NCBI RefSeq assembly: GCF_022758235.1
Contig: NZ_JALEBG010000001.1
Coordinates: forward strand, 2,232,001 to 2,296,000
Direction: 5' to 3'
DNA length: 64,000 nt
From: Pontibacter liquoris
Lineage (GTDB): Bacteria > Bacteroidota > Bacteroidia > Cytophagales > Hymenobacteraceae
The notes beneath the pieces were generated by a model, which was not told the DNA's origin, made no database searches, and saw nothing but the letters and a program-made list of their open reading frames with translations. This document shows, one piece after another, positions 8,358 through 16,928 of the stretch; position 1 is the stretch's first letter; every line of letters begins with the position of its first letter. The translations under genes were made by a program, and so were the position numbers.

Positions 8358-11300
8358 ATGGATTTAGTACAGGAGGTCGTTCAGCTTCGGCAGCAGCTGG
8401 ACCAGGAACGTTTGGCACGGCAGGCTGCAGAGCGCCGGGCGGCGGAATATAGCAGCGCAGGGGAAGCAGCACTAACAGCACAACAAACGGCAGCAACCGC
8501 TTTTTCCCAGTTATCACCCAACTTTTTACAGGATTCTATTGCGCAGGGCTTCAGCTTTCCTTACGCCATGGCGGTAACGGATGCAGCTGGCCTTGTAATG
8601 TTCCTGAATACTCCTTTTCTGCAGGTCTTTCAATTGCCGGAGTCTCCGACGAGCTATGCAGGCCAGCCGCTGCAGTTGCTGGAAAGCACAGCGCTACGGC
8701 AACCGTACGTACCCGGCAGAACCTATACTTCTGATGCAGGCGCTTTAGTTTCAGAAATTACGCTGGCTAACGGGAAAATTCTGGCCCGCGATCAGTTTCC
8801 GTTTATACTTGCCGGTAACGCCTGCGGCCATACCTGGATTTACCGGGAGATTACTACAAAACGCCGGAACCGTAACCTGCTGGAGCATCTTTCCGAATTT
8901 CAGGAAGAGTACCCCAACCCTATCCTTCGGATCGACTACCTGGGCAAGCTATTATACACCAATGTGGCCAGTCAGCACCTGCTCATTACGCTGGGCCAGC
9001 GACGACAGGAAAGTTTCTGCCGGCTGCTACGCCGAAAGGTAAGCCAATTACCCGACCAGCAGACTCCTTCCACGCTCGAAACCTTTGTAGCAAACAATTA
9101 CTACCTGCTTTCCATGGTGCCCTTTCCCGGAAAGGGCTATATCAATATCTACATGACTGATATTACGGGCTGGCGCAAAACCGAACTGGCTTTGCAGGAA
9201 AGCCAGCGCTTTATCGGCAACATTGCGCGCACCATCCCGAGCATCACATATATCTATGATATTGAAGATGATAAATGCATCTACATAAACAGCCGCATTA
9301 GCGAAGTGCTGGGCTATACCGAGGCTGATATTGCCGCCATGGAAGGCAACTTTCTGAGTGCTGTGGTGGTACGGGAAGAGTTGCAGCACCTCTATAGCCA
9401 TATTTGCGACATGCTGCAAGCACCAGACAACCAGATGGTAGAAGTAGAATATCGGGTGCAGTGCAAGAATGGCAGCACCCGGCACCTGCTTTGCCGCGAA
9501 AGCGTCTTTAAAAGAAAGGCCGACGGTCAGGTAAAGCAAATTATCGGCGCGGCAGATGATGTGACAGCCCTGCGGCAGAAAAGCCAGGAACTGGCGCGGC
9601 AGAAGGAGTTTTACGAGAACATCCTGCACCTGATCCCCTCTGACATCGCTGTATTTGACAAGGAACTGCGTTACCGGTATGTAAACCCGGCAGCCATACA
9701 GGACCCTGACTTACGCAAATGGATAATCGGCAAAACAGAAGAAGAGTATGGTCGCTATCGGAACCTCCCGCCAGAACGCTCTGCCCATAGAGTCCGGTAT
9801 TTGCGGCAAGCGCTGGAAGAAAAAAGCTATGTTGAGTATGAAGAATCATTCCTGAGCCGTGATAGCAAAAACCTGCTTCATTTTTTACGAAGGTTAAAAC
9901 CGGGGCTCGATGCAGCCGGCAACGTCGAGCTGATCATTGGCCACGGGATGAATATAACTGACCTGCGCACGGCACAGGAGGAGATATCACGCAGCGAGGC
10001 AAAGAACCGGGCTATTCTGGCCGCTTTACCCGACCTGCTGTTTGTAGTCAGCCGTGACGGTGTTTGCCTAAATCTGAAAAACGCCACCCCGGAACACCCG
10101 CTGGTACTTAGATCAGAAGCTATCGGTAGCCCGATTGACCAGCTGCTGCCAGCCCAGTTAGCGGGTCAGATCATGCCCCTAATCCGCAGCGTTTTAATAA
10201 AAGGAACACCTGAAGTATTGCATTTCAACCTTACTAATACCAGCAGTTTATACTACTATGAATGTCGCCTGATCAAGTATAGCGAGGATGAGGTGGTTGT
10301 GATCATTCGCGACATAACGGAGGAGCACAAAGCGCAGGAGGAAGTACGCGAAAAGAATGAATTCATCCGCCTGGTCATCGAGACAAGTCCCAGCCTGATT
10401 TATGTAAAGGACGAAAAGGGGAATTTCATACTTGCCAACCAGGAAGTTGCCAGGCTTTTCAATATGTCTGTGCCAGAATTAATCGGGCTCAATACCGTTG
10501 ATGTCAGTAACAACAGGCAGGAAGCGGATGCCTTGCTGGCTAGCGATTGGAAAGTAATTAACAGCGGCAAAGAAGTAGAGGTAATTGACAGGTATACCAG
10601 GCATAATGGGGAGATAGTCTGGTTTAACACCATCAAAAGGCCGTTGATCACAAGCAATGGGCAGGTACATGTGCTGGGTATCTCGACCGACATTACCGAG
10701 CAACGCCAGGCCCGGCAGCGCCTGGAGCAAAGCGAGGAATTGCATCGTCTGCTTTCGGAAAACTCCAGGGACACGATCAGCCTGATCGACCTGGAGGGCA
10801 ATTATACTTACCTGTCTAAGGCCGCCGAGCAGATGTTCGGGTACGCCACAGAAGAGTTGCTGGCGATGCCCTCTTCCGTGCTCATCCACCCCGAAGACGT
10901 AGCTCTTGTGCAACAAAAAGGCTTTCAGCGGGCGTTAAAGGAAGGCAAAAATACGACCGTCGGGCACCGTGCAGTTAAAAAAGACGGAACTGTTATCTGG
11001 CTGGAGACAAGTATAAAGCCGCTTCGGGATGCGGACGGTAATATCGTGCAGATCCAGACGGCTGCCCGTGATATTACGCGCCGCCACACGGCTGATATGG
11101 CCCTGAAGAACAGTGAAAAGAAATACCGCGACCTGATTAACTATAGCCAAGCCTACATCTGCACGCACGACATGGAGGGCCGCATTATCTCGGTAAACAC
11201 CTACCTGCAGCAGATGCTCAACTACACGGAAGAGGAGCTGCAGGGTACGTACCTGAAAGATCTTTTCCCGGTAAAGCACCAGCAGAATTTCCCTGAATAC

Positions 11301-13028
11301 CTGGACAGGTTTAAAACGCAAAGCAACGTGGATGGGGTGCTCTCCATTTTAAACAAAGACAAGAACCTGCGCTACCTCTACTTCCGCAACTATAAAGTAG
11401 AAGAAGATACCCAAAACCCCTATATCATTGCCCTGGCTCAGGATATTACCGACCGGATGCTGGCCGAGCGCGAACTGTTTAAAGCCAAGGAAGCCGCTGA
11501 AGAATCGGCCCGGGTGAAAGAAAATTTCCTGGCTAACATGAGCCACGAGATCCGGACACCCATGAACGGCATCCTGGGCATGACGGGGCTGCTGGACAAA
11601 ACTGCGCTGACGGATGATCAGAAAAACCTCCTCGACATCATCCGTCAGTCGGCTGACAACCTGCTGGTCATCATCAACGATATCCTGGACATTGCCAAAA
11701 TAGAATCCGGCAAGCTGGAGTTGGAAGAAATCCCGTTCAACGTTCAAGACACCGTGAAGGCGGCTTTCCAGACCCTGACCTACAAAGCCGAAGAGAAAGG
11801 GATTGCTTATACCATGACGCCGCTTGCGCTTGCGCATCCGCTGTTGATAGGCGACCCGTATCGCCTGAACCAGGTGTTATTGAACCTGCTCAACAATGCC
11901 ATTAAATTTACGGAAAAGGGTAGCGTAACCTTAAGTGTGGCGGTTCAGGAAGAAGACGCACAGCAGCTTACCCTGGTATTTGTGGTAGCTGATACGGGCA
12001 TCGGTATTCCGAAAGATAAATGGGATTCCATTTTCGAGGGCTTTACCCAGGCTTACTCCAGCACTACTCGCAAGTATGGCGGCACCGGCCTTGGTCTGAC
12101 CATAAGTAAAAACCTGGTGGAAATGCAAGGTGGCCGCATTTGGGTGGAAGATAACCACGCGCAGGGAAGCATTTTCAAATGCACACTCACCTATCGTAAG
12201 TCGGACCTGCAAATGGATGAAAGCCTGCAAAAAGAGGAGATCGATTACAACAGCCTGGGTTGTGTAAAGGTGCTACTGGCCGAAGATAACGAGATCAACA
12301 TCTTTTTGGCCCAGACTGTTATGGAAAGCTGGGGCTTCCAGGTGACCGTAGCCCGGAATGGCCGTGAGGCAGTAGACCTGGCCCGCGAGCAGCTGTATGA
12401 CGTGGTGCTGATGGATATTCAGATGCCGGAACTAAGCGGCACCGACGCAGCCCAGCAGATCAGGTTGTTTACGGACAAGGAAAAAGCAGCTGTGCCCATT
12501 ATTGCGCTCACGGCAAATGCCCTGAAAGGCGATGCTGAAAGGTACCTGAGCGCGGGTATGAACGCCTACCTTTCCAAACCTTTCGAAGAAGATAAACTGT
12601 TTCAGAAAATAGCCGCCATACTTCCGGTAAAGCAGCAGCAGCAAATGCCTGTACATCCTGTAGCTGACAGCTTGCCTGCTACACCGGAAGCGCCGCTCTA
12701 TGACCTGGAACTACTTCATAAAATGAGTCGGGGCAACGAGGCTTTTATACAGAAAGCGACGCAATTGTTTATAGAAACTGTGCCTCAAACGGTGGCAGAG
12801 ATGCAACAAAAAAGCCTTCGCGAAGACTGGCCGGGTGTGAGTGCAGCTGCCCATAAACTGAAAGCCTCGATTGACACGCTTCGCATCACATCGCTGCGAG
12901 AAGTGGTGCGTGACATAGAGCAGGAAGCAAGGGACGGTGAAAACCAGCCAAAAATCCAGGCAAATATTGACCTGGTAGCTGCTGTAATCGGGAAGGTTAT
13001 TAACTTGTTAAAAGCCGGCCAAAGCTGA
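8358..13028 (+). CDS. Multi-PAS hybrid sensor histidine kinase with receiver and HPt domains
   Basis: A 1556-aa signalling protein with no clear transmembrane segment, so probably cytosolic. A short coiled coil (residues 1-40) is followed by about eight PAS-like blocks starting near 73, 176, 280, 417, 548, 672, 797 and 921, several with typical D-G-NYTYLS or D-G-RIISVN openings. The HisKA box FLANMSHEIRTPMNG carries His1063. The HATPase shows N, DTGIGI, and GGTGLGL boxes. A receiver follows with Asp1353 in VVLMDIQMPE, then an HPt domain with His1499 in AAAHKLKAS. The full H-D-H chain implies a multistep phosphorelay whose final acceptor is plausibly the adjacent sigma-54 activator. Ligands of the PAS domains cannot be inferred. 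It is unusually long for the class. A terminator follows at 13059-13093. Confidence 0.93.
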   Translation: MDLVQEVVQLRQQLDQERLARQAAERRAAEYSSAGEAALTAQQTAATAFSQLSPNFLQDSIAQGFSFPYAMAVTDAAGLVMFLNTPFLQVFQLPESPTSYAGQPLQLLESTALRQPYVPGRTYTSDAGALVSEITLANGKILARDQFPFILAGNACGHTWIYREITTKRRNRNLLEHLSEFQEEYPNPILRIDYLGKLLYTNVASQHLLITLGQRRQESFCRLLRRKVSQLPDQQTPSTLETFVANNYYLLSMVPFPGKGYINIYMTDITGWRKTELALQESQRFIGNIARTIPSITYIYDIEDDKCIYINSRISEVLGYTEADIAAMEGNFLSAVVVREELQHLYSHICDMLQAPDNQMVEVEYRVQCKNGSTRHLLCRESVFKRKADGQVKQIIGAADDVTALRQKSQELARQKEFYENILHLIPSDIAVFDKELRYRYVNPAAIQDPDLRKWIIGKTEEEYGRYRNLPPERSAHRVRYLRQALEEKSYVEYEESFLSRDSKNLLHFLRRLKPGLDAAGNVELIIGHGMNITDLRTAQEEISRSEAKNRAILAALPDLLFVVSRDGVCLNLKNATPEHPLVLRSEAIGSPIDQLLPAQLAGQIMPLIRSVLIKGTPEVLHFNLTNTSSLYYYECRLIKYSEDEVVVIIRDITEEHKAQEEVREKNEFIRLVIETSPSLIYVKDEKGNFILANQEVARLFNMSVPELIGLNTVDVSNNRQEADALLASDWKVINSGKEVEVIDRYTRHNGEIVWFNTIKRPLITSNGQVHVLGISTDITEQRQARQRLEQSEELHRLLSENSRDTISLIDLEGNYTYLSKAAEQMFGYATEELLAMPSSVLIHPEDVALVQQKGFQRALKEGKNTTVGHRAVKKDGTVIWLETSIKPLRDADGNIVQIQTAARDITRRHTADMALKNSEKKYRDLINYSQAYICTHDMEGRIISVNTYLQQMLNYTEEELQGTYLKDLFPVKHQQNFPEYLDRFKTQSNVDGVLSILNKDKNLRYLYFRNYKVEEDTQNPYIIALAQDITDRMLAERELFKAKEAAEESARVKENFLANMSHEIRTPMNGILGMTGLLDKTALTDDQKNLLDIIRQSADNLLVIINDILDIAKIESGKLELEEIPFNVQDTVKAAFQTLTYKAEEKGIAYTMTPLALAHPLLIGDPYRLNQVLLNLLNNAIKFTEKGSVTLSVAVQEEDAQQLTLVFVVADTGIGIPKDKWDSIFEGFTQAYSSTTRKYGGTGLGLTISKNLVEMQGGRIWVEDNHAQGSIFKCTLTYRKSDLQMDESLQKEEIDYNSLGCVKVLLAEDNEINIFLAQTVMESWGFQVTVARNGREAVDLAREQLYDVVLMDIQMPELSGTDAAQQIRLFTDKEKAAVPIIALTANALKGDAERYLSAGMNAYLSKPFEEDKLFQKIAAILPVKQQQQMPVHPVADSLPATPEAPLYDLELLHKMSRGNEAFIQKATQLFIETVPQTVAEMQQKSLREDWPGVSAAAHKLKASIDTLRITSLREVVRDIEQEARDGENQPKIQANIDLVAAVIGKVINLLKAGQS

Positions 13029-13570: not shown

Positions 13571-13592
13571 AAGTATAGCCCTTGGTCTTTAA

Positions 13593-13624
13593 CAAATGTA
13601 ACCGCAGTTCAGCATATCTCCAAA
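13593..13624 (-). promoter_or_regulatory. Promoter of the XRE regulator gene
   Basis: Read on the minus strand, TTTG (13624-13621) precedes TACATTTG (13600-13593) with a 20-bp spacer. This matches the -33/-7 consensus and sits 23 bp before the start codon. Confidence 0.55.
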
Positions 13625-13728
13625 CAAGATCCTTTGTGATGCATAAATTTGCTTTACTTATACCTTAAGATCAATACCATTATTTGATTAATTATTAGAC
13701 ACTTGAGTGGGTCATTCCAAAACATAAT

Positions 13729-13770
13729 TACTACTGTTTACAATTGTATATACATTTGTAAACAGTAGTA
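13729..13770. promoter_or_regulatory. Large palindrome, candidate operator
   Basis: Perfect 15-bp arms TACTACTGTTTACAA (13729-13743) and TTGTAAACAGTAGTA (13756-13770) flank TTGTATATACAT. Inside there are nested half-sites TTTACAA-TTGTA and TACA-TTTGTAAA, as expected for a dimeric or cooperatively bound repressor. The plus strand also contains TACATTTG at 13751-13758, a -7-like element that such a repressor would cover. The XRE protein encoded next door is the obvious candidate ligand, by inference only. Confidence 0.55.
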
Positions 13771-13893
13771 GAATTGACTTTTCACAGCTGTAAATGCGCG
13801 ACTTACTTACTGCTTTTTAGAATTTCGTAACTTCTCCTCCCTCCGGATCACCAGTCGCGCTAAACGCTGGCTGCCACAATGACATACCTTTTA

Positions 13894-13933
13894 GAAGCAT
13901 TTGTGGATAAGTCGAGTTATCCACAAATGCTTC
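13894..13933. promoter_or_regulatory. Hairpin of two inverted consensus DnaA boxes
   Basis: Perfect 17-bp arms at 13894-13910 and 13917-13933 flank the 6-nt centre GTCGAG. Each arm contains a consensus DnaA box: TGTGGATAA at 13902-13910 and TTATCCACA at 13917-13925, arranged head to head. No dnaA, dnaN or box array is present in the window, so I do not call an origin. A DnaA-binding or titration site is plausible, and a plain terminator or structured RNA is the alternative. Confidence 0.5.
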
Positions 13934-14117
13934 ATCTGCATGCTTTTAGGGTAACTTGTCAAAAGGAAAAGATGGAGGGCGCCCTGCTATTTTAGCATGC
14001 CATGCTAGCTGCTTTGAGCATTTTATAGTTGCGGTCAGTGGGTTAGCTCTAATGAGCCACGGGATTATACTTTGGCAGGAATGCCCCGACCTATGGAGCC
14101 ACCCAGAGAGCAAATAA

Positions 14118-14149
14118 AAAAGGAACTGCCCGTTAAGGCAGCTCCTTTT
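14118..14149. terminator. Bidirectional terminator after the azurin-like gene
   Basis: Arms at 14118-14130 and 14137-14149 (AAAAGGAACTGCC / GGCAGCTCCTTTT) pair with one mismatch around CGTTAA. A-rich and T-rich flanks allow function on either strand. It lies just after the stop of the minus-strand cupredoxin gene. Confidence 0.75.
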
Positions 14150-14168
14150 CACATAGTAGCAGATACAC

Positions 14169-14714
14169 TTATTTTACTTTAAATACACCATGCATGCGCC
14201 GCCAATGTTCCGGATAGGTACAAACAAATTCATAGTTGCCCGGCTTAAGGGGAGCCGTAAACTCTACCTCAACCGTTTGCCCCGGCAGGGCTATAGGCGA
14301 CGACGCGATGACGGTGGTCGTATCGGGTACATAATTTCCGGAAGCCCCGAGCTGCTCGCCTGCCAGCGCTACCATTTTATACTTGCCGGGAGCCGTAAAC
14401 ACCACATTATGTACCATCGTCATATCTTCGGCTTCGTTAATGAGCTTAAGCTTGATCAGCGCGCCTGCCTTTGCTTCCAACGTGTCCTGATCATAGCGCA
14501 TCTCTTCCAGGCTGTTTCCGGAAGCAGTAAGGGTTAAATGCACCACAGCCTGCAGGATAGTATCAGCTGCGGCTGCCTCAGGAGCTCCGGCGGCAATGGA
14601 GGCGGTATCTTTTTCTGCCTGGCGGATGTTTCCTGTTTCAGTTGTTTCCGTATCCGTGTTACAGCCCGGCAGCAGCATTACAGCCGCGATGCAGAGCATC
14701 CAGTATCGTTTCAT
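14169..14714 (-). CDS. Azurin-like cupredoxin lipoprotein
   Basis: A 181-aa periplasmic-facing lipoprotein with lipobox LLPGC (Cys18), a linker rich in Ala, Thr and Glu (residues 20-52), and a C-terminal type I blue-copper domain. All four azurin ligands are present: His102 in TMVHNVVF, then Cys165, His170 and Met174 in FVCTYPEHWRRMHG. The Cys-x4-His-x3-Met spacing is identical to azurin. It is expected to carry electrons among periplasmic redox partners; the partner is unknown. The start codon is 43 bp after the L,D-transpeptidase stop on the same strand, so the two may be cotranscribed. A terminator follows at 14118-14149. Confidence 0.9.
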   Translation of the reverse strand: MKRYWMLCIAAVMLLPGCNTDTETTETGNIRQAEKDTASIAAGAPEAAAADTILQAVVHLTLTASGNSLEEMRYDQDTLEAKAGALIKLKLINEAEDMTMVHNVVFTAPGKYKMVALAGEQLGASGNYVPDTTTVIASSPIALPGQTVEVEFTAPLKPGNYEFVCTYPEHWRRMHGVFKVK

Positions 14715-14757: not shown

Positions 14758-16518
14758 TTATCCAAAGTATTCCTTCGCGAGCTCTTTGTCGTGGCCATAG
14801 ATGTCGTTGCGGAAGTGCTCCTCGCCATTCTCATCTACCCAAGCCGTGAAGTATACAATGTATACCTGTATCTTCTTAGGCAATGTTACCCAGGTTTCCT
14901 CGCCGGTATCGATCGTATCGCGGATGCGCTGCTCATCCCACTCGGGCATATCCTGTAACACATACTTGGCTAGTTCCAGGGGTTTCTCCAGCCGAACGCA
15001 ACCATGGCTGAAATCACGCTGTGTCTGGCTGAAAAGGGAGCCGGCAGGCGTATCGTGCAGGTATACTGCGTACTGGTTCGGGAACAGGAACTTAAGCGAC
15101 CCAAGGGAGTTCTTCGGGCCAGGTCGCTGGCGCACCATGTACTCAAAATTCTTCTCCGTTACGTCCGCCCAGTTAATGGAAGAAGGCGAAACCGGTTGCG
15201 GCTCTTTTTCCTTAGTCACTATTTCCATGTCCTGCGTATCGAGCCAGTTGATGTTGGAGAGCATATGGGGCTTTATTTCCTTCTCCACAATGCTGTTGGG
15301 CACATTCCAGTAAGGCGCGAGCACCACATACTCCATTTTATCACTGAAGATCGGGGTGGAATGCAGGGTCTTACCCACGATCACGCGCATCTCCATTTTC
15401 TTCTGGTATTCCCGTTCAGCTTCCGGATCGTTTTGGGGGTCTTCGTATACATAGAGTTTATACTCCGGTATATTAACCCAAATGTATTTCTGATCCAGGC
15501 TTTTAGGCACCATGCGTTTCGGGATCCAGCGCCAGCGCTCCATATTGATCACGATCTGCCGGATACGGTCATCCAGGGGCACATTCAGGGCTTTCAAGGT
15601 ATTTCCGCCTACTACACCGTCCTGGTCCAGGCCGTTCAACATCTGAAAATGCTTTACCTGGGCCACCAGCTTCTCATCGTACGTGCGCAGGTTTTTATCG
15701 TTCGTATTCAGGGGCTGACCGGGGTTCAGGCGTTGGCGCAGGGCCAGCACAGCAGCGGCCGTATCGCCTTTTACCAGAGATTTACGGGAAGCCAAGTCAA
15801 TTTTAGGCCAGCCACCTTTTGCCTGTAGGTCGCGGTATTGCTGCAACTTGTCGCGCAGCCTTCTGTAGCCGGCATGCAGGGCTTCGAACTCGTAGTAGGG
15901 ATAGGTGCTTTCGCGTTCTTTCAGAATGGTCTGCAGGGCTTTATCCAGCTTGATCTTATTCTTTTTCACATCCCAGCTCACTGTGGTAACATCATCCGGA
16001 TTTACCCGACCCCGGTAAAAATCGGAAGCGAAGTTGAAGTAGGAAGCCGTAAGGGCCACATCTATTTGCTGCTGTAGTTGCTGCCGGCTCGGGTCATCAG
16101 AGGCTTTCGCGTCATACGCTTCCAGCAGCTTGTTAACGTCCACAATTTTATAATTCTTTGGGTCTAAGCCCTCTTTAGAAGCATGATCTATCGCCTGCAT
16201 CAGTTTCTGCATCTGCGGCACTGGTTTATTCTCCCGGAACCAGGCCAGGCGGTAGTCCCGCGCACGGTAAAAATCGAACATGAGGTCTTCGTGTTCTTTG
16301 AACTCAGGTTGTTTCTGTAAGTACTTCTCTACAAACAGGCTATCGGTTTTGACCTGCGGCTGGGTGTTTTTCCCGAACATACCTTTCAGGCCATCTGCTG
16401 AGGAATTGTCATCTGTTTTGGTTTTATTGCAACCTGTGGCCAGGCCCAGGCATAAGACAGCAGCAAACGGTAGTATGGCACGCTTTAACAGGACATGCTT
16501 TAGATTAGAAGGGCTCAT
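14758..16518 (-). CDS. L,D-transpeptidase lipoprotein (YcbB/LdtD-like)
   Basis: A protein of about 586 aa that forms 3-3 peptide cross-links in peptidoglycan or attaches proteins to it. I start at the ATG at 16518, which gives a compact signal peptide ending in the lipobox LATGC (Cys30); an in-frame ATG at 16593 would add 25 residues. Next come the helical scaffold domain typical of YcbB (to about residue 235), a peptidoglycan-binding helix bundle (LRQRLNPG ... VKHFQMLNGLDQDGVVGGNTLKAL, about 245-310) and the YkuD catalytic domain with YAVYLHDTP and SHGCVRL, whose Cys is the nucleophile. Being lipid-anchored is somewhat unusual for YcbB homologues. The azurin-like gene follows directly. Confidence 0.9.
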   Translation of the reverse strand: MSPSNLKHVLLKRAILPFAAVLCLGLATGCNKTKTDDNSSADGLKGMFGKNTQPQVKTDSLFVEKYLQKQPEFKEHEDLMFDFYRARDYRLAWFRENKPVPQMQKLMQAIDHASKEGLDPKNYKIVDVNKLLEAYDAKASDDPSRQQLQQQIDVALTASYFNFASDFYRGRVNPDDVTTVSWDVKKNKIKLDKALQTILKERESTYPYYEFEALHAGYRRLRDKLQQYRDLQAKGGWPKIDLASRKSLVKGDTAAAVLALRQRLNPGQPLNTNDKNLRTYDEKLVAQVKHFQMLNGLDQDGVVGGNTLKALNVPLDDRIRQIVINMERWRWIPKRMVPKSLDQKYIWVNIPEYKLYVYEDPQNDPEAEREYQKKMEMRVIVGKTLHSTPIFSDKMEYVVLAPYWNVPNSIVEKEIKPHMLSNINWLDTQDMEIVTKEKEPQPVSPSSINWADVTEKNFEYMVRQRPGPKNSLGSLKFLFPNQYAVYLHDTPAGSLFSQTQRDFSHGCVRLEKPLELAKYVLQDMPEWDEQRIRDTIDTGEETWVTLPKKIQVYIVYFTAWVDENGEEHFRNDIYGHDKELAKEYFG

Positions 16519-16928
16519 TTTTAAATGTTTAGTATGATTTATCAGTTGCTGGTTCAGGGGCTTACCTTTGAAGGGTTTTAGCACAGGCTTCATCTTGTTT
16601 TAATACAACAACAATGCGCACTCACCCTGCTATACAGCTAGTTGCCTTTATGTACTCCTACTTTAGCTAAAATGTTATTCAGCCGCAAGCGTCTTTCCGC
16701 TCCTTAGTTCCTGCCGCTTTCACCTGCTACCGCTTACCGGTAAACGGGGGAAAGGCATTTTAAGACCAGCACCGGACCTGCGGCATATTTCTCATCATAG
16801 CGAATGTATAACCCTCCCTGTCCTGAAAACTTATAGGCCATGGCCCTCGTTGCTTCAAGGGATAAAAAGTCCTGCGAGCGTATACGCAAGCTGACCGCCA
16901 CAACACAACCTGACTTAAAGCACAACCT
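16519..16928. other. Intergenic region between divergent genes
   Basis: About 410 bp separating the L,D-transpeptidase and M1 aminopeptidase genes, which are transcribed away from each other. I find no terminator, no clear TAnnTTTG promoter and no RNA gene. A partial palindrome around TTACCGGTAA sits near 16735. Confidence 0.4.

Follow-up and report, generated by a model that had tools for sequence, protein, structure and literature searches.

Upstream of a gene for an XRE-type (Cro/CI-type helix-turn-helix) regulator in Pontibacter liquoris lies a pair of exact DnaA boxes, set head to head within a perfect palindrome. We analyzed this pair in a 64,000-nucleotide stretch of the genome (contig NZ_JALEBG010000001.1, positions 2,232,001 to 2,296,000), referred to here as the window. 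Comparison of sequences across the genus indicates that the box pair is a conserved element of Pontibacter, and we see about an even chance that it serves the neighboring XRE gene as a DnaA-binding cis-regulatory element. The pair and its companion palindromes make up a composite element that is, by the same comparison, real and conserved; it belongs to a known class, that of control regions with DnaA boxes, and its make-up is new. None of the open-licence full texts that we searched mentions Pontibacter together with DnaA, and none joins DARS, datA, DnaA, and Bacteroidetes. If the regulatory reading is true, the locus would be a candidate, and a compact one, for control of a regulator by DnaA in Bacteroidota.

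The full palindrome reads GAAGCATTTGTGGATAA-GTCGAG-TTATCCACAAATGCTTC, and 6 bp separate the two opposed boxes. The initial annotation, made from the letters of the window, had placed two exact DnaA boxes in a perfect palindrome with 17-bp arms within a 598-bp intergenic gap, and all of this was confirmed, the gap spanning 13571 to 14168. The AT-rich stretch that it described 130 to 250 bp away is also present and contains a second conserved palindrome, which it had missed (Table 1). No other exact DnaA box occurs in the window. With up to three mismatches allowed, the pair was found once in the window against a mean of 0.02 in shuffled sequences (present in 2 of 100 shuffles); with up to two, it occupies a single place in the 4.92-Mb genome. 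A first-order estimate from the window's composition predicts about 5e-5 exact pairs genome-wide. Chance is excluded above all by the conservation of the pair in 23 genomes. The 24-bp geometry of the pair also occurs in unrelated bacteria (at least 120 stretches; a DnaA homologue was within 4 of the 120 listed). The contexts inspected among the listed stretches differ, and geometry by itself thus does not point to any one family.

For the conservation analysis, 50 genomes of the genus were searched (G000 is the window's own) with the pattern TGTGGATAA-N6-TTATCCACA, allowing up to two mismatches and using the reversed pattern as a control. The pair was matched in 36 genomes and the control in none of the 50. 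Twenty-three of the 36 carry it at the locus seen in the window, with the XRE gene on one side and the cupredoxin-like and L,D-transpeptidase genes on the other; these pairs are exact except in G006, which has one mismatch (22 of 23 exact). In the other 13 it occupies a different place, which for 11 is a second conserved locus or its vicinity. Using a profile built from 16 XRE proteins, we called an XRE orthologue in 24 genomes (E value of 8.9e-37 or better), always at this locus, whereas the best match in the remaining 26 was 5.7e-10 or worse. In these 26 genomes, no XRE gene lies within 1.5 kb on either side of the cupredoxin-like gene. Consensus boxes conserved upstream of a gene, as expected of a DnaA-regulated promoter, were found in 23 of the 24 XRE-bearing genomes, and the pair was found at this locus in 0 of the 26 genomes lacking XRE. 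The element thus tracks the presence of XRE, which points to gene control. Conservation in relatives had been proposed as a check by the initial annotation, which was to fall if the origin mapped elsewhere and relatives lacked the boxes; the origin does lie elsewhere (see below), and the boxes are kept.

We then aligned the upstream regions from the 23 genomes, which were picked for having the box pair; G002, an XRE-bearing genome without it, is excluded from those counts. Three blocks are common to the regions (the AT-rich palindrome, a TGNCA-N3-TGNCA palindrome, and the box pair), and the spacer is otherwise little conserved. An independent search for the operator-like sequence TTTACAWWTGTATATACAWWTGTAAA with up to three mismatches found it at a single locus in each of 23 of the 50 genomes, and the reversed control gave no match; 22 of these 23 genomes hold the box pair. 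The distance from the center of the AT palindrome to that of the box pair is 156 to 180 bp (22 values). Helical phasing of these distances gave a resultant of 0.58 at 10.5 bp, which is suggestive only, as the 22 values are not independent. Four genomes (G004, G008, G043, and G059) have a full second AT copy just upstream of the XRE start, 158 to 160 bp beyond the first. The strict form of the third block, TGMCA-N3-TGKCA, has its center 34.5 to 36.5 bp from that of the box pair (19 regions). The AT palindrome has a dif-like look, and a dif site was set aside because a further copy occurs by the start of XRE and half-sites lie ahead of XRE genes in other genera.

Table 1. Features of the box-pair region and its neighboring genes, in window coordinates.
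Feature	Position	Strand	Sequence or basis
Perfect palindrome, 17-bp arms, 6-bp center GTCGAG, both DnaA boxes inside	13894-13933	none	
DnaA box	13902-13910	-	TTATCCACA (TGTGGATAA read on +); exact
DnaA box	13917-13925	+	TTATCCACA; exact
TGNCA-N3-TGNCA palindrome	13872-13884	none	TGCCACAATGACA; in 22 of 23 aligned regions
AT-rich palindrome, putative XRE operator	13729-13770	none	core TTTACAATTGTATATACATTTGTAAA at 13737-13762; genus conservation, half-sites in other genera
Degenerate half of second operator-like site, ~20 bp upstream of XRE start	13589-13600	none	inverted repeat
XRE (Cro/CI-type HTH) regulator gene, 141 aa	13145-13570	-	Pfam HTH_3 5.6e-08, Phage_CI_repr 8.2e-07
Predicted intrinsic terminator of upstream cupredoxin-like gene	14117-14150	-	terminator scan
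Cupredoxin-like (plastocyanin/azurin family) neighbor gene	14169-14714	-	Pfam Copper-bind 1.5e-09
L,D-transpeptidase neighbor gene	14758-16593	-	Pfam YkuD 3.1e-22; adjoins XRE in other genera too

As a control element of XRE, the site would work as follows. DnaA would bind both inverted boxes jointly; the genome's own DnaA carries RDHSTV, which we take to be the motif reading the DnaA box, within its Bac_DnaA_C domain, i.e., an ordinary DNA-binding domain. The XRE protein would control itself from its own operators (156 to 180 bp nearer the gene, often with another just ahead of the start), and a third protein may occupy the TGNCA palindrome. Together, these proteins would assemble into a single upstream nucleoprotein complex, within which DnaA, possibly through looping, would raise or lower XRE transcription. 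Over the cell cycle, the regulator would thereby track either the activity of DnaA or the fork as it passes near the terminus. This is the simplest account of the exact boxes, the near-fixed operator spacing, and the joint presence with XRE. Self-controlled Cro/CI-type (XRE) repressor genes form a familiar class, and the likeness lies in repeated palindromes at and upstream of the regulator's own start; in contrast to such genes, the Pontibacter upstream region has gained a pair of DnaA boxes as well as a TGNCA palindrome. A likeness to DnaA-controlled promoters such as those of E. coli dnaA and mioC (PMC4585315) lies in consensus DnaA boxes upstream of a gene, whose control would be the analogous role here. 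The Pontibacter site differs from them in that its two boxes form a perfect head-to-head pair, lie about 330 bp ahead of the gene, and have XRE operator-like palindromes beside them.

Several observations weigh against this reading. The XRE start is about 330 bp downstream of the pair, which sits past the operator and over no recognized promoter, and the outer arms are more complementary than two protein sites would need; the account leaves both this complementarity and the distance unexplained. G002 keeps XRE and the operator and has no pair, and G001 keeps XRE and the pair and has no operator match. The presence of XRE is clustered on a tree of the transpeptidase (56 rows), so that the 24/26 split does not amount to 50 independent events: 5 changes of XRE presence are needed, and well-supported branches force only 1. 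Outside the genus, none of the 18 upstream regions described below has an exact DnaA box. The same genomes offer natural controls for the proposed regulation, namely, the 26 relatives without gene and site, G002 with the gene and no pair, and G001 with the pair and no operator match.

In other genera, an XRE orthologue (E value of 5e-24 or better) with a transpeptidase gene nearby was found in 18 of 21 genomes; the three genomes of one genus among these 21 had none. Operator half-sites precede XRE at 13 of these 18 loci (26 half-sites versus 0.1 in shuffles), and TGMCA-N3-TGKCA is present in 2 of the 18 upstream regions. This pattern suggests that the XRE gene is old, its operators included, and that the box pair was added later. 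The exact pair itself was found in 2 of 154 genomes of the family outside the genus. A recent mobile origin of XRE was set aside: only distant relatives were found (29 to 34% identity; 3 plasmid and 3 phage records), and the XRE-transpeptidase neighborhood is common to other genera of the family. In two g19 genomes (L373 and L375), the operator palindromes upstream of XRE are extended and nearly perfect (about 59 bp by eye), with different letters in the arms.

The chromosomal position of the locus bears on the alternatives. We sampled GC skew across the main contig in G054, G057, and G022 and across part of the contig in G000. In G054, the cumulative skew minimum is at about 3.3205 Mb (within the 100 kb read) and the sign change at the terminus at about 0.99 Mb, with the site at 1.1735 Mb. 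In G057, skew changes from negative to positive at 2.78 to 3.31 Mb, the other change is at 0.02 to 0.28 Mb, and the site is at 0.545 Mb. The origin in G022 is away from the locus, and the site in G000 is in negative skew, 0.1 to 0.4 Mb past a positive-to-negative change (about 1.83 to 2.07 Mb). The locus is not a replication origin. An origin region had been one option of the initial annotation, and it fails on these skew origins: in both G054 and G057, the site is away from the skew minimum and close to the opposite change of sign. The clustering of boxes that it had suggested looking for is absent as well: boxes with at most one mismatch numbered 8 in the window versus a shuffle mean of 10.8, and where oriC would have a cluster of several boxes, the site has two exact ones, the nearest one-mismatch boxes in the window being at least 0.8 kb away.

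The origin marker was a gene, presumably GldJ-like, situated no more than 2 kb from the skew minimum of G054. The distance from locus to marker as a fraction of the main contig, taken as a circle (four of the seven assemblies have a second contig), was 0.494 in G054, 0.518 in G001, 0.451 in G057, 0.454 in G002, 0.557 in G020, 0.519 in G021, and 0.507 in G022. The last three are complete genomes without XRE and the site, and their locus is still terminus proximal; the position thus belongs to the neighborhood and not to the box pair itself. The dnaA gene lies at G054:C1:4007344, about 0.7 Mb from the skew origin, and at G057:C1:3796878, well away from the origin, so it is no origin marker here. 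Low-GC islands with strong negative skew lie 14 to 60 kb to one side of the site (G000:C1:2212001-2232000, 0.388; G054:C1:1113517-1153516, 0.347 to 0.390).

One alternative is that a different protein binds the conserved 24-bp palindrome, which would resemble two DnaA boxes by accident. Its center reads nnCGAG in 18 of the 23 regions, which independent 9-bp boxes would not require, and the neighboring palindromes would belong to other proteins. On the other hand, both halves are full 9-bp DnaA-box matches in 22 of 23, and TTATCCACA is over-represented in the genome (49 occurrences versus 16 of its reversed form). We regard this explanation as unlikely.

The most interesting alternative is a DARS-like role. 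The site would then be a chromosomal DnaA-activity site like DARS or datA, where a head-to-head DnaA dimer sets initiation timing through nucleotide exchange or hydrolysis and XRE is a mere neighbor or an accessory factor. Such a role would fit a single-copy element that keeps a near-constant position close to the terminus and has accessory palindromes spaced at fixed distances from it, and opposed boxes support a head-to-head DnaA contact in DARS (PMC8682772). A DARS core contains three DnaA boxes and datA five (PMC8682772 and PMC4585315); two boxes of the DARS core are opposed, and datA also has an IHF site. In the window, no third exact or one-mismatch box lies within 800 bp, leaving two boxes against the three of DARS cores and the five of datA. 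The site is also missing together with XRE from 26 of the 50 congeners, and its terminus-proximal position may have been inherited from the neighborhood, as the three complete genomes without XRE and the site suggest. With E. coli DARS1 and DARS2 (PMC8682772 and PMC4585315), the site shares opposed consensus boxes, a noncoding location, and adjacent sites for further proteins; it differs in having two boxes, not a core of three, and in that its presence follows XRE. We consider this role quite improbable. Of the options in the initial annotation, a DnaA regulatory site appears the best supported, and the datA- or DARS-like form that it had attached to it is less likely given the number of boxes.

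A third alternative, which we hold to be similarly improbable, is that the hairpin itself is the functional form, in RNA or in extruded or single-stranded DNA (ssDNA), e.g., in the leader of the XRE transcript or like the A-site of the ABC primosome. As ssDNA, it folds at -17.4 kcal/mol with 17 pairs (shuffles averaged -2.56, n = 200, none equal), and it is also stable as RNA, far better than shuffles. The outer arms differ between genomes yet pair within genomes: 138 of 184 flanking positions are complementary versus at most 116 in 20,000 permutations. At the A-site, an ssDNA hairpin carrying a DnaA box serves to load DnaB (PMC6127211); the likeness, so far of form only, is a 17-bp stem containing one DnaA-box duplex. 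The Pontibacter site differs from it in lying in chromosomal duplex near the terminus. Three or fewer bases are paired beside the boxes in 7 of the 23 sites, which speaks against a strict need for a hairpin, and no Rfam family matched the window at gathering scores. Arm complementarity may reflect selection for a hairpin or quasipalindromes perfected by template switching, which can reportedly yield such arms without selection.

A more far-reaching form of the control-element reading, for which we see only a slim chance, makes the locus a terminus-proximal sensor of replication progress. With DnaA on the pair and XRE on the operators in one complex, XRE would be switched by the arriving fork or by the nucleotide bound to DnaA near the terminus; such a DARS- or checkpoint-like device would have arisen within one genus. 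An accident, i.e., an ordinary terminator-like hairpin or part of a replication origin, either of which a perfect intergenic hairpin with AT-rich DNA nearby can resemble, is the least credible, next to excluded by the conservation in 23 genomes (control, 0), by the skew origins elsewhere, and by the intrinsic terminator scan: the hairpin is not among its 4 sites in the window, has no T-run, and keeps its boxes while the outer arms change, which disposes of the terminator accident considered in the initial annotation.

Downstream of the XRE gene and convergent with it, the window encodes a hybrid histidine kinase of 1,556 aa with several PAS domains plus receiver and Hpt domains (8358 to 13028). 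Beyond this locus, the second box-pair locus of other Pontibacter genomes has GCTAAAAATGTTAG followed by TGTGGATAA-N6-TTATCCACA, by TTATTAACA, or by a form with a longer spacer. It lies at 1501 to 1524 of L049, L051, L060, L062, L063, L064, L066, L067, and L071, downstream of a lamin-tail-like gene; in G020, G021, and G022, the origin marker is about 370 to 400 kb away. Among the 30 loci read, 10 of 11 XRE-bearing genomes lack it. We keep this second pair (center GCnnnn) apart and do not read it as the same element relocated, given its different flanking motifs and its distance from the origin marker in those three genomes.

Three exact DnaA boxes within 47 bp at G000:C1:3105146-3105192 (L116) head a cluster of cell wall and division genes, the gene just downstream being, we presume, mraZ. 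These boxes were rejected as oriC because they are just upstream of the presumed MraZ gene and in negative skew. Finally, the pair TGTGGATAACTATCATTATCCACA occurs in two g18 genomes (L333 and L334), where another TGTGGATAA closely follows it, and in Hymenobacter psychrophilus (L157), being present in few members of that genus.
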